Virus record (IMG/VR): IMGVR_UViG_3300022413_000032
Coordinates: 1 to 32,289 of that record
Direction: 5' to 3' (one strand)
Origin: a virus
Length of the DNA: 32,289 nucleotides
Part shown: positions 6,706 through 29,623 of the stretch, in pieces
Layout of the letters: every line of letters starts with the position of its first letter
Position numbering within the stretch: the stretch's first letter is position 1
Position numbers and translations under genes: made by a program
The notes under the pieces: model-generated
Told to the model about the DNA's origin: nothing
Seen by the model: only the letters and a program-made list of their open reading frames with translations
Databases searched by the model: none

Positions 6706-7132
6706 CTTTCTTCATCGCTCTTACAATGTGCGCCCCGAAAAAGAACGCGCCAATACCAAGAACAAAGTAGCCAATTGGGTCATCAATGACCAGATCACGG
6801 ATAAATTTTGCGTCTTCGGTCCATCCGCACAAATGCAGGACACCAGAAAGGGTCAGCATTGCCAGCGCCCAGCGCATGACAAGCAGGGCGATTTCTCGTC
6901 TGGCCTTCGAGCGCTCGGTGTTTTCGCTGACAGAGTTGGCCATGAAAGAATCCATGTGGCCGATAAGCTTGACGTTGTATTCAGACTGTTCCTGCTTCGT
7001 GAACTTCTGCTCGTCAATAAAGTTACCCACACCCTTGGCCACCGTCATGACGTTATCCACACCCTTGCCGGTAGAAGAGCCAAGGCCGAGCACCATTTTG
7101 GCACCGGCCCATAGTCCAGATAGAATCCCCAT
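6698..7132 (-). CDS. Holin, GTA 3TM family
   Basis: The 144-residue protein has a glycine-rich hydrophobic N-terminus (GLWAGAKMVLGLG), a charged middle with FTKQEQSEYNVK, then a RREIALLVMRWALAML segment and two C-terminal hydrophobic helices (about residues 84-103 and 114-135), ending in KKDE. This pattern matches the 3TM holin family first named from gene transfer agents, which forms lesions in the inner membrane for host lysis. ATG at 7132 has a GGAG SD just upstream. A terminator lies just upstream of the gene (7147-7171), so lysis genes may have their own promoter or depend on read-through. A DnaA box is at 7053-7061. Confidence 0.8.
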   Translation of the reverse strand: MGILSGLWAGAKMVLGLGSSTGKGVDNVMTVAKGVGNFIDEQKFTKQEQSEYNVKLIGHMDSFMANSVSENTERSKARREIALLVMRWALAMLTLSGVLHLCGWTEDAKFIRDLVIDDPIGYFVLGIGAFFFGAHIVRAMKKDE

Positions 7133-23853: not shown

Positions 23854-23981
23854 ATCAGTATCCCGTAGATCATGTGGATAAGTTCGGAAAATATAGCGCC
23901 AAGGATGTAATACCCAACCGCAGCGCCAATGGCGACAGAGCCAAGCAGTCTACATCCGTGAAATAACACGCTCAATGGCAT
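23850..23981 (-). CDS. Small membrane protein (43 aa)
   Basis: ATG 23981 ([20 protein letters not shown]) was chosen because it lies in the ordinary position near the end of the J-domain gene; longer in-frame starts up to 24041 overlap that gene further. Two hydrophobic segments (about residues 12-30 and 32-43) suggest one or two membrane helices. DnaA box 23873-23881 encodes LIH. The start is uncertain. Confidence 0.5.
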
Positions 23982-24591
23982 CGCGATCCATCGCGGCACG
24001 GTCGGTAGCATTTGGTGCGTCAAAGTCGTAATCGTAATCATCCATTAGCTCCAGCATCAGGTTGTACATCGTGATGTCTTCTTTGAAAGAGGTTACCTTG
24101 CCCTTCTCCAGTCGAGTCTGCTCCGCGATGACGTTCTCCATTATTTTCGGCTTCCTTGAGCGACGGTTCTTGCGCTTCAGTTTCTTGGTCACTTTGGCAT
24201 ATTGGGCGATTGCCTTCTCGGCTTTCTTCTTTAGCCTTTCAGGCTCCCGGCGCGCACTCGTCACCTTCTCCCGCATGAACTTGAAGATATCGATCCGGTG
24301 AATGTTATCCACATTCTCGGTCAGGATGGCTGTGAATAACCCGGCCAGATTCTCATACGCCATCTGGGTCGCGGTCGGCTTGGTTCTGTGGCCGTCTTCG
24401 CCAGTGCGATCATAATCGGCACGCGCCCGGTCGTCATATAGCACCATGTAGGCATGCTGCACTTCCTGAAACGCCTCTTTGTCACCGCCTTCGCGGTCGG
24501 GGTGTAGTTTTCTGGCCAATTTTCGGTACGCCTTTTTTATCTCGGCTTTGGTCGCGTCCTTCGCGATGCCGAGGGTTTCGTAGAGGTCCAT
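23950..24591 (-). CDS. J-domain (DnaJ-like) co-chaperone
   Basis: The 213-residue protein begins with a complete J domain: [38 protein letters not shown] with HPD at residues 30-32, and [19 protein letters not shown]. The rest is a charged helical region with a very basic [14 protein letters not shown] stretch near 135-150, with no zinc centre or C-terminal peptide-binding domain. J proteins stimulate host DnaK (Hsp70). In a lambda-like replication setting, this could help free DnaB helicase from the P-like loader. The phage-encoded J protein next to a P-like gene supports that, but it is inference. A DnaA box is at 24305-24313. Confidence 0.85.
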
Positions 24592-26394: not shown

Positions 26395-26480
26395 TAAGCT
26401 TTCGGGCCTTTCGGCTTGCAAACCCAGTAAAAGCCGTAAATGAGCAAACCGGTAACGATATATGCGAATAATATTTCCAT
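26394..26480 (-). CDS. 28-aa single-TM peptide, probably leaderless
   Basis: The product MEILFAYIVTGLLIYGFYWV, then a short basic tail, is one membrane helix. ATG 26480 lies 6 bases from a -10 box, so the message probably starts at the ATG; no SD is possible. The same layout is found at 16442. It heads the leftward replication/recombination operon. Confidence 0.55.
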   Translation of the reverse strand: MEILFAYIVTGLLIYGFYWVCKPKGPKA

Positions 26481-26486
26481 AATTCG

Positions 26487-26515
26487 ACTGTAAACTATAT
26501 CTTTATAACAGTCAA
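26487..26515 (-). promoter_or_regulatory. Promoter of the leftward replication operon
   Basis: Leftward: TTGACT (26515-26510), 17 bases, TACAGT (26492-26487), then CGAATT and the ATG at 26480. The spacer has ATAAAGATATAGTT, shared in part with the promoter at 16449-16478, so both operons are probably co-regulated. Confidence 0.65.
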
Positions 26516-26832
26516 GGTAGGCTTTATGTTAATTAGCTATTCGAAGTAGATTCGGAGCAAAGTTCACCCAAGGCCAACCTTGCGGCTGACCGAGAACGAG
26601 TTTAGCTAAACGAAGTGAGTTCGTCGCGTCGTCCACCAGCATCTGACGGCTCCATGCCGAGTCTTCTACCTTACCGACGTTCTGGATAAACCCTATCGGC
26701 AGGTCGCTTTGATTCAGGCGGAACTGAGAACGAAAATCCCTGTGACTGCTACACCTGAGTGCTGATGGAGCCAGATTTTGGCGGATTTAGGTCCAAAAGT
26801 GTCGAGATTTCGACAGTTTGGTCCAGATTAGC
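26516..26832. other. Intergenic region without a convincing gene
   Basis: About 317 bases with no ORF that has both a start and an SD. Visible are a 12-base palindrome GTTTAGCTAAAC (26600-26611), an open but start-less minus-strand frame (stop at 26529, open to about 26786), and a palindrome at 26800-26815 listed separately. Confidence 0.5.
26800..26815. promoter_or_regulatory. 16-bp palindrome TGTCG-N6-CGACA (copy 1)
   Basis: TGTCGAGATTTCGACA. The reverse complement of copy 2 (27066-27081) differs from it by one base. It is centred about 60 bases upstream of the proposed start of the first small RNA, an activator-like position. Confidence 0.6.
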
Positions 26833-26861
26833 TTGACAGTGGTACCAATTTTGACTATATC
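26833..26861 (+). promoter_or_regulatory. Promoter of first small RNA
   Basis: TTGACA (26833-26838), 17 bases, TATATC (26856-26861). Nothing coding follows before the terminator at 26963-26999. Confidence 0.65.
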
Positions 26862-26867
26862 TGTCGC

Positions 26868-26999
26868 CATAAGGCGAGAGCGTTGTACCGGATATTGCTG
26901 CAGCTAATGTAAATGGTCTATCCGTCCGCGATGTTGCTCCAACAACAAAGCCTGAATAGAATAAGCCCCGGTTGGGTCCAGTGTCAACCGGGGCTTTTT
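26868..26999 (+). ncRNA. Candidate small RNA 1 (about 130 nt)
   Basis: It is bounded by a good promoter and a very strong terminator. No ORF with an SD is seen within it. Near the 5' end GCC-ATAA-GGC can pair (extended to TCGCC/GGCGA if the start is at 26864), and GTTG-CTC-CAAC near 26931-26943 forms a further hairpin. It lies in the same orientation as two further noncoding transcripts. The start point is inferred from the -10 box. Confidence 0.5.
26963..26999 (+). terminator. Strong rho-independent terminator
   Basis: AAGCCCCGGTTG (26963-26974) pairs over a 10-base loop with CAACCGGGGCTT (26985-26996), and a T run follows. A 12-bp stem makes this one of the strongest in the window. Confidence 0.9.
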
Positions 27000-27065
27000 C
27001 ATTTTTATCCTCGATTGTTTACCTTCTTGTGCCTGAGTGTTGTCAGCAACCACTACATGTTGTGG

Positions 27066-27081
27066 TGTCGGAATCTCGACA
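27066..27081. promoter_or_regulatory. 16-bp palindrome TGTCG-N6-CGACA (copy 2)
   Basis: TGTCGGAATCTCGACA. Its reverse complement, TGTCGAGATTCCGACA, matches copy 1 at 15 of 16 positions. It is centred about 64 bases upstream of the proposed start of small RNA 2. Confidence 0.6.
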
Positions 27082-27103
27082 CAAATTAATTTTAAAATAA
27101 AGT

Positions 27104-27131
27104 TTGTATTTATGCCGGAATATGAGATAAT
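27104..27131 (+). promoter_or_regulatory. Possible promoter of second small RNA
   Basis: TTGTAT (27104-27109), 16 bases, GATAAT (27126-27131). The -35 box is weak, which would fit dependence on an activator at the palindrome upstream. Confidence 0.45.
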
Positions 27132-27137
27132 TCGGTC

Positions 27138-27227
27138 GTTGGTAGCTATCCCCATGGTTGCCAACGTGTCGCCCACTTTGAGCGGCCTTGGTTTCCTAAC
27201 TCCTTACCTCGGCCGCTCATTTTTTTC
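27138..27227 (+). ncRNA. Candidate small RNA 2 (about 90 nt)
   Basis: A hairpin CGTTGG (27137-27142) / CCAACG (27161-27166) is followed by a terminator with TGAGCGGCC (27179-27187) and GGCCGCTCA (27211-27219) and a run of 8 Ts. No ORF with an SD is present. The 5' end is inferred. The stretch 27228-27398 that follows shows nothing I can identify. Confidence 0.45.
27179..27227 (+). terminator. Rho-independent terminator of small RNA 2
   Basis: A 9-bp stem TGAGCGGCC/GGCCGCTCA with a 23-base loop, then TTTTTTTT. Confidence 0.75.
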
Positions 27228-27398
27228 GGGCCAGAGCAGCGGACGAAACGTACACAGTCCATCATGAGGCGCGGAGCGAGACCGGTCTTGTCGTAGCCCG
27301 CCAAGCAACAGTGTGAAAACAGCGTGCGTGACAGGAGGGAGAGACCCCAGAAACTATCCCCAATATAAATCTTTTTTCAATCTATAGTAAATTTATAC

Positions 27399-27426
27399 TT
27401 GACACTCTAACGTAATACGTTATCAT
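27399..27426 (+). promoter_or_regulatory. Promoter of the large structured RNA
   Basis: TTGACA (27399-27404), 16 bases, TATCAT (27421-27426), preceded by an A/T-rich stretch (27361-27398) that could act as an UP element. The start would be near 27433. Confidence 0.75.
27408..27422. promoter_or_regulatory. Palindromic operator in the promoter spacer
   Basis: TAACGTA-A-TACGTTA is a perfect 7-bp inverted repeat lying between the -35 and -10 boxes, so a bound dimer would block transcription of the large RNA. Confidence 0.55.
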
Positions 27427-27867
27427 GCGCCTCCGCTTCGGGAAGATACCACCGGGTAACCGGTGTAAAAGGGGGGAATCCTACTCAACCCCCGCCATTT
27501 AGCTTCGGCTATTTGGTCATCCGAAAGCAAGCTGAGCCGCCGGGGTATGCCCCGGAGATTCCATTCAGGTGGGATATGCGCAGCGAGTGATTAGAGTCGC
27601 TTTAGGGAATAACCAAAACCCCAGCCAGTCGTAAGGCTGGCGCGACATGAAAGCAAGCTGGTAAGAGGTAAAGGGTAGAGCGGTAGTCCAAGCAGGAATG
27701 TGAGGGCATCGCTTAGGTCAATCGATAGTGGTCGAAGGGTCACGCGTCGAGAAGGTCAGTCAAGTAGCCGTCGGGTGAAGACATGTGGTGTGTGGCATTT
27801 CGCAGGGGCAACCCAGTGAAACCACAGAGGCCAGCACATCATGGTAGGTTGTAGACGCTAACCCGTC

Positions 27868-27941
27868 TGCCTTATAGCTCAGTTGGTTAGAGCATATCAC
27901 TTATAATGATACGGTCGCTGGTTCAAATCCGGCTAAGGCAA
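27868..27941 (+). tRNA. tRNA-Ile (anticodon UAU)
   Basis: A full cloverleaf: acceptor UGCCUUA (27868-27874) / UAAGGCA (27934-27940) with discriminator A; U8 A9; D stem GCUC/GAGC; anticodon stem UAUCA/UGAUA with loop CUUAUAA (anticodon UAU at 27902-27904); T stem GCUGG/CCGGC with loop UUCAAAU. The first pair is U1-A72, and CCA is not encoded (CCU follows). It would read AUA codons. It lies inside the large structured RNA, so it must be cut out by RNase P and 3' processing or remain part of that RNA. Confidence 0.88.
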
Positions 27942-28294
27942 CCTCTGAAGGGTTGTTAAAACGCAAAGACTGGCCTCGGTGGAATGACGAAAGTCGCGTA
28001 ATTCTGCAGCCCTCGGGTAATGCAGAACCATGAAGCTCGCAAGGCCGATTGGTTTGATGTAGAGCGCACTCACGGAGTCGTACAGCTACGTGGAGAAGCG
28101 AAGCATCGAGTCGTCATCCAGCACGGACTACCGCATGTCCTTAAACTGCCGTGATGACCTTGTACAGTGGTGAGATTTTTCTGCCGCTGTGGATAAGTCA
28201 GTAACTGTCGGCTGCAACCGGTAGGTACGCTGATGAAAGCAGGGTCGCGGTATCCATAGTCTCAGGATGCTGGTCTACTACAGACCCGTTAAAG

Positions 28295-28316
28295 GCCCAC
28301 TTCGGTGGGCTTTTTT
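28295..28316 (+). terminator. Terminator of the large RNA
   Basis: GCCCAC-TTCG-GTGGGC followed by six Ts: a stable UUCG-capped terminator. Confidence 0.92.
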
Positions 28317-28390: not shown

Positions 28391-28432
28391 GTGAGTCTCG
28401 CAACACACGGAACCACACTATCACTCATATAG
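28391..28432 (+). CDS. Possible 13-codon ORF behind a perfect SD and a hairpin
   Basis: AAAGGAGGA precedes GTG 28391 (VSLATHGTTLSLI when read with Val) and a stop at 28430. A 7-bp hairpin TTGGTTA/TAACCAA (28360-28378) ends just before the SD. There is no clear promoter, so the frame may be chance; leader peptide or SD-bearing decoy are alternatives. Confidence 0.25.
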   Translation: MSLATHGTTLSLI

Positions 28433-28672
28433 TAGTGGATCAACCTTCTTTGGGTCTATTTCAAGAATGGCCGCCAAATGCCTGACCCAGTAGGGTGGCA
28501 CGATACCTCGCAATCGCCATTCATTTATTTTCTGTGGATAACAATCGACTTTGGCCGCGTCAGCTATTTGTCGTGCTAGCTCAGCCTGTGAGCCACACTT
28601 TTTGATAGCCTTCTCAATTAAGCGACCGTTGTTTTTGATCTGGAATTTCTTCGGATGGTCAGTGAATGACAT
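28421..28672 (-). CDS. YdaS/Cro-like repressor (83 aa)
   Basis: The pattern LIEKAIKKCGSQAELARQIA, QKINEWRLRGIVPPYWV and HLAAILEIDPKKVDPLLY is the helix-turn-helix arrangement of Cro/YdaS-type DNA-binding proteins. It is transcribed away from the replication/recombination operon at 28736/28895, as a phage repressor or Cro would be. A/T-rich DNA (28673-28733) between them holds the promoters. ATG 28672 has GGAAA upstream. A DnaA box (28533-28541) is inside the gene. No integrase was seen, so lysogeny is not shown. Confidence 0.75.
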   Translation of the reverse strand: MSFTDHPKKFQIKNNGRLIEKAIKKCGSQAELARQIADAAKVDCYPQKINEWRLRGIVPPYWVRHLAAILEIDPKKVDPLLYE

Positions 28673-28894
28673 GTAGTGTTTCCATATAAATAAAATATTT
28701 GCTTTATATAGATTGATACATTAACATATCCCGTTATGTGGGACAAGTCCGAAGAAATTGATTACGGTGAGCATCCGAGTGATGATGCTCTCCGGGTTCG
28801 CCCACAAGACCAGACCATTGAAGAGTGGCTGGCCGACTACGACAGGTTTAAAGACCTACCACAAAATGAGTTTAGAGACTCCGAGGAAATTGAA

Positions 28895-29623
28895 ATGAAA
28901 GTAAGAGAAGGCGCAGTTGTTGATTTTGATCCGGCACCCATCGGCATGCATGTATCTCGATGCATTCGCATTATCGATCTGGGAACGGCTGTGGATAACA
29001 TGTACGGAAAACCGAAGCACGACGTTTTCTTTATGTGGGAGATTCCCGGCCAGTTGAAGACCTACACCAAGAAAGGTGAAAACGGTCAGGCGGATCAGGA
29101 GATCACCGAACCATTCACGGTCTCCAAGTACTACAACGCCACGCTGACGGATGGCTCGCATCTGCGAACCGATCTGGAATCATGGCGCAGCAAGCCATTC
29201 ACCGAGCAGGAACTGCAGGGATTCGAACTCCGAAACGTTATCGCAGCACCCTGTATGATCAATGTTATCCACAAGCCCCGCAAGAACAAGCCGGGACAGG
29301 TGAATGCAGTGGTCACCACCGTTACCCCTATGCCCAAGATCGACGGCATGGTCTGCCCTCCGCAGGCACATCCATCGGTTTTCTTTTCGCTCGATCCGGA
29401 AGAGTTCGATCCGCAGATATACGAGTCACTGTCGCAGGGCTTGAAAGCCCGCGTCATGCAGTCCGACGAGTACAAGTATCTGCTGTCGCTGGGCAAGATA
29501 CCGAATACCCCGGCTCAGGGTCAGGCACCACAAACTGACTACTCGCAACCACAGCAGGGCGCGGTTGGCATGAATGAGAACCAGCCTCCGGTTGACGATG
29601 GATTTGACGACATCCCGTTCTGA
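28895..29623 (+). CDS. Phage single-stranded DNA-binding protein (SSB-like)
   Basis: I choose ATG 28895 because AGGA lies at the right distance, giving 242 residues; the frame is open back to an ATG at 28736, which would add 53 acidic residues. The domain (KVREGAVVDFDPAPIGMHVS, CIRIIDLGTAVDNMYGKP, HLRTDLESWRSKPFTEQELQ) is that of phage OB-fold-like DNA-binding proteins with a T-S-K-Y-Y-N-A-T-L region. The C-terminus is a flexible Pro/Gln tail ending DDGFDDIPF, the acidic tip by which SSBs bind partner proteins. It is the first main gene of a rightward operon. DnaA boxes at 28990 and 29265. Confidence 0.8.
   Translation: MKVREGAVVDFDPAPIGMHVSRCIRIIDLGTAVDNMYGKPKHDVFFMWEIPGQLKTYTKKGENGQADQEITEPFTVSKYYNATLTDGSHLRTDLESWRSKPFTEQELQGFELRNVIAAPCMINVIHKPRKNKPGQVNAVVTTVTPMPKIDGMVCPPQAHPSVFFSLDPEEFDPQIYESLSQGLKARVMQSDEYKYLLSLGKIPNTPAQGQAPQTDYSQPQQGAVGMNENQPPVDDGFDDIPF

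Follow-up and report, generated by a model that had tools for sequence, protein, structure and literature searches.

An intergenic stretch of about 885 nt in a 32,289-base IMG/VR phage record (hereafter the window, meaning the whole stretch of DNA that was analysed) is, to judge from its sequence, almost certainly a divergent GOLLD RNA. It holds a tRNA in its linker. The class itself is known, and tRNAs in the linker of some GOLLD members have already been mentioned (PMC12286853). What is new here is that a strongly supported branch has the GOLLDs with a linker tRNA all on the same side, and that the acceptor tops of these tRNAs are mostly broken and CCA is absent. Of these results, the lineage with worn acceptor ends most deserves to be pursued. 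A fixed-site, tRNA-shaped module whose charging end has been worn away narrows what the GOLLD cage might do.

The RNA locus and its boundaries

The phage record carries terminase, SU10-like portal and NinB genes, together with a gene (23950–24591) whose product has a DnaJ domain at its N terminus (PF00226, E 1.6e-21). Its large terminase subunit and portal share less than 60% identity with their closest named relatives. The leftward genes end on one side of the RNA stretch, and on the other is a convergent gene on the minus strand (28421–28672), which encodes a small Cro/YdaS-like DNA-binding protein with a weak Pfam match to PF15943.

On the plus strand, the stretch is preceded by a promoter-like site, TTGACA-16-TATCAT (27399–27426, an 11/12 match), whose spacing and place are the same in a sister phage (L097). 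A perfect palindrome with 7-bp arms, TAACGTA-A-TACGTTA (27408–27422), lies between the promoter hexamers and reaches into them, which suggests a putative operator. The GOLLD 5′ domain (27433–27784) and 3′ domain (27785–28268) follow on the same strand, and a UUCG-capped intrinsic terminator hairpin with a T run (28291–28314, folding z −4.3) closes the locus. The first-pass annotation had described such a promoter with a palindromic operator and such a terminator, enclosing about 885 nt with strong helices and a complete tRNA but no convincing open reading frame, and all of this is borne out. The stretch has no open reading frame of at least 60 amino acids, the longest short one reaching 50; its predicted fold beats 20 of 20 shuffles (z −4.7); and the Rfam tRNA model and tRNA prediction both place a full tRNA-Ile with anticodon UAU at 27868–27943 on the plus strand (72.7 bits).

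Upstream of the RNA, about 1 kb of the window (26422–27398) is without convincing genes and holds two strong terminator-like hairpins, at 26963–26996 (z −5.9) and about 27179–27227 (z −5.3). The sister phage likewise has two terminator-like stretches 5′ of its GOLLD promoter, and short noncoding transcripts may arise upstream of this promoter.

Assignment to the GOLLD class

At default Rfam cut-offs the tRNA alone was reported in the window, and GOLLD was seen after sub-threshold matches had been listed. The covariance model RF02032 matches the 3′ domain end to end (positions 1–416 of 416) with 117.8 bits and an E-value of 6.5e-32. This score, like that of the sister RNA (113.4 bits), is below the curated gathering cut-off of 150 bits, which is a search threshold and no structural feature; a default Rfam scan consequently misses the window GOLLD, and divergent GOLLDs are overlooked at such thresholds. 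The ROOL covariance model, by comparison, gave no match in the window at E ≤ 10. ROOL is also a large cage-forming phage RNA that is often found near tRNAs (PMC12286853), and the earlier annotation had proposed membership of the GOLLD and ROOL class, with a search by both models as a check, or else a new class. The RNA falls in the known class GOLLD, so that the proposal of a new class is discarded.

Reading the RF02032 pairs on the sequences gave 83 of 90 canonical pairs in the window and 83 of 92 in the sister phage. Fitting the alignment to RF02032 favours pairing, though not to the extent observed: with partners slid by 1–3 columns, the window keeps 27–38 pairs in the 3′ half. Between the window and the sister, 28 model pairs of this half have changed on both sides and are still paired, compared with 1–5 two-sided changes in the slid controls. 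The RNA has further features of the class, namely a structured, less conserved 5′ domain next to the conserved and covarying pairs of the 3′ domain, a total length above 800 nt, a location in a phage with terminase and portal genes, and a tRNA, here inside the linker as published for some members. In spite of the low score, the tree described below and the pair counts group it with GOLLDs above the cut-off. It stands apart from other GOLLDs by its divergence and by its small phage fragment, in which there is no tRNA array.

The score below the curated cut-off could be taken to mean that the locus is hairpin-rich intergenic DNA plus a tRNA gene, unrelated to GOLLD. We regard this as practically excluded: it is refuted by the end-to-end match and the 83 canonical pairs, and it is further contradicted by the compensatory changes in both halves of the RNA and by a sister RNA at the equivalent place.

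The sister phage and the 5′ half

The sister phage (IMGVR_UViG_3300023279_000679) has a large terminase subunit 79% identical to that of the window. Its GOLLD lies at the equivalent place, 3′ of a TTGACA-16-TATTAT promoter, and is followed by a Cro-like gene 64% identical to that of the window (L098) and then by a gene with an SSB-like tail. The two RNAs align from the promoter through the 3′ end. This includes the 5′ half, which lies outside every Rfam model and is collinear between the two phages. RNAalifold predicted 85 pairs for the 5′ half, 19 of them with changes on both sides, against 1–4 in slid controls; since the two sequences were themselves the source of this structure, the percentage paired is not independent and the compensatory changes are the evidence. 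Covariation, which had been named as a check in the earlier annotation, thus comes from both halves.

In the sister linker no tRNA is recognisable, and two hairpins stand at that place instead, so the RNA does not depend on a linker tRNA. Just beyond the 3′ end of the sister GOLLD, on the opposite strand, is a tRNA-Tyr gene.

Linker tRNAs among relatives

A DNA pattern for the conserved 3′ end matched 118 viral loci. We tested 83 records, of which this pattern supplied 80 and another pattern 3; 76 of the 83 passed the GOLLD cut-off, which indicates that GOLLD is widespread in phages. The suggestion that the window RNA extends the class to another phage lineage is therefore weaker: it is a divergent member, but of a class that is already widespread and for which linker tRNAs are already published. 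Other searches were less productive. A first DNA pattern matched 14 contigs, all without GOLLD, and a second one matched the sister contig plus three others that lack GOLLD. Protein searches with the neighbouring gene returned one distant locus and the sister again, and a pattern for the 5′ domain gave no new relatives among viral and genome contigs upon profile check.

The window tRNA falls in the variable linker of RF02032, around model positions 90–108, and its 3′ end is 325 nt before the GOLLD 3′ end. ARAGORN placed a tRNA within the linker in L117, L127, L170, L181 and L216, with the tRNA 3′ end 323–344 nt before that of the GOLLD, and covariance models added L113 and L142. The site is fixed, and the Rfam tRNA matches of 38–73 bits extend across very distant members. 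The linker of L333 gave no significant tRNA match. In L127 (6491–6565) and L142 (about 6755–6826) the linker tRNAs have an apparent CUA anticodon and would read the amber stop codon; a further CUA tRNA of L127 lies at 2835–2913.

Many other GOLLDs adjoin a downstream tRNA, which starts about 8 nt after the RNA 3′ end (L104, L113, L128, L138, L148, L162, L163 and others). Processing of this downstream tRNA could set the GOLLD 3′ end.

To place these RNAs, we built a tree from the last 325 nt of GOLLD, with the tRNA excluded. A branch with 100/98 support separates all eight linker-tRNA GOLLDs in the tree, together with the sister, from 56 others. The window RNA is thereby joined to tRNA-bearing GOLLDs. 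For an unrooted tree with long branches and a sampled set, this suggests a single origin of the linker-tRNA GOLLDs.

Isolated phages with the same arrangement

The 3′ part of the window matches phiCbK-group phages of Caulobacter, and L127 matches Phaeobacter phage MD18 and phage DSS3_MAL1. These have full-length RF02032 matches of 160–171 bits with tRNAs inside. In phiCbK, the GOLLD 3′ domain lies at about 105042–105528 of JX163858.1 (from locus L330). The records of these phages have the tRNA annotated and the surrounding GOLLD unannotated. The GOLLDs of phiCbK, CcrKarma, RBC57, MD18 and DSS3_MAL1 resemble that of the window in the full-length match and in the equivalent place of the tRNA. 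They differ in residing in large phages of 150–220 kb and in their tRNAs, which are annotated as Gly, Lys or Arg and have broken acceptor tops. In the sequences compared, the tRNA bodies of phiCbK (Gly anticodon) and CcrKarma (Lys anticodon) are otherwise the same and differ at the anticodon loop. The presence of the arrangement in phages of Caulobacter laboratory strains opens it to direct tests.

L330, L332 and L334, from phiCbK-type phages, also have a permuted tmRNA match near the GOLLD, at 237–555 on the minus strand (RF04321, 71–72 bits, cut-off 47), which is unannotated in those records.

Acceptor ends of the linker tRNAs

Among 10 independent linker tRNAs (phiCbK and CcrKarma counted once, as were MD18 and MAL1), 8 have mismatches in acceptor pairs 1–3, with acceptor strands assigned by visual inspection (uncertain for L142), and none encodes CCA. 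Stand-alone tRNAs on the same loci show such mismatches in 1 of 35 cases, in a set of mostly full-length Rfam matches that is biased toward intact ones, and CCA is encoded by 14 of the 16 stand-alone tRNAs on L127, L117, L335 and L331. A Fisher test run with 7 versus 2 gave 7e-6; the actual count of 8 versus 2 is more extreme. The window tRNA is an exception and the best preserved of the linker tRNAs compared: its acceptor stem is paired at 7 of 7 positions and ends in A73-C74-C75-U76, hence without a full CCA. Overall, the worn acceptor tops suggest a built-in domain rather than an excised tRNA, though the window copy is intact.

Models for the linker tRNA

The solved GOLLD, env-38, is a 14-mer homo-oligomeric cage whose cap is built from the 5′ half and whose ring is built from the 3′ half; the linker is disordered and lies inside the cage (PMC12286853). 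A tRNA has also been predicted inside GOLLD in earlier work, in which the Mycobacterium case was called a pseudo-tRNA and its expression was not detected (PMC6582537). In a Lactobacillus brevis prophage, GOLLD builds up during lytic growth and is not required (PMC7567579), and a rise of expression during lytic growth is published for other GOLLD members (PMC12286853; PMC7567579).

For the window RNA we infer transcription, cage assembly and a tRNA that is left uncut. The whole stretch would be transcribed as one noncoding RNA, and by homology with the solved structure it would assemble into a homo-oligomeric cage, capped by the 5′ half and with a ring made by the 3′ half, an assembly that we consider quite likely. 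The linker carrying the tRNA-Ile(UAU) would then point to the interior, where many copies of the tRNA would be displayed as a built-in domain; whether the tRNA stays in the RNA is an evenly balanced call. The best overall explanation, on balance a probable one, is thus a divergent GOLLD cage RNA that keeps its tRNA as an inward domain. The view of the tRNA as a retained domain rests on the worn acceptor tops, the absent CCA, the fixed site and the change of anticodon on a constant body.

Excision is still conceivable for the window RNA because its own tRNA is intact; with its paired acceptor and A-C-C, this tRNA could still be processed. Host tRNA-processing enzymes would then release a working tRNA that decodes AUA, and GOLLD would be a precursor that is split into halves, which may still assemble. 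Such a role is in keeping with AUA usage in 19 window genes (7.5 per 1000 codons, 12.8% of Ile codons), with the published description of the GOLLD halves as separate domains (PMC12286853) and with the many GOLLDs that adjoin a tRNA downstream. We nevertheless consider it unlikely, since the acceptor tops are broken in most linker tRNAs of the relatives, CCA is encoded by no linker tRNA, in contrast to many of the neighbouring tRNAs, the anticodon changes on one constant body between phiCbK and CcrKarma, and the sister phage has no recognisable linker tRNA. Folding also predicted a helix that clamps the window tRNA, but pairing of the tRNA flanks was not above chance (140 of 300 shuffles were as low).

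The broken acceptor ends, the two hairpins in place of a tRNA in the sister phage and the L333 linker would suit a decaying passenger in a tolerant loop, with the RNA working just as well without it. The linker is, moreover, variable and, in the solved structure, disordered (PMC12286853). Mere decay, however, should not spare the tRNA body so widely, and both the fixed site and the persistence of tRNA matches across very distant members make this account rather improbable to us. Returning to the retained domain, the linker-tRNA GOLLDs may even be a distinct lineage in which the tRNA body is a lasting cage module with a changeable anticodon, and in which loss of the acceptor top and CCA blocks maturation and charging. 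Many such tRNA mimics would then be displayed within the cage, where they could, for example, capture the ribosome or an enzyme that recognises tRNAs. We put this forward tentatively, as a possibility that is more doubtful than probable.

Control regions and neighbouring genes

In the sister phage (L097, reverse complement), 16 identical bases, AAATATTTGCTTTATT, occur near 757–773 at the GOLLD promoter and near 1946–1962 in the control region of the Cro-like gene, a 16-nt share that was reached in 0 of 5000 shuffles. This sequence match suggests that GOLLD and the Cro-like gene are under shared control in the sister phage. In the window, the sequence shared between the GOLLD promoter and the Cro-like gene was not above chance.

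The window also encodes a 295-amino-acid protein (28736–29623) that no family match names. Its C-terminal DGFDDIPF resembles the acidic tip of single-strand DNA-binding proteins, and its relative in L098 is 55% identical and ends in EFDDIPF.
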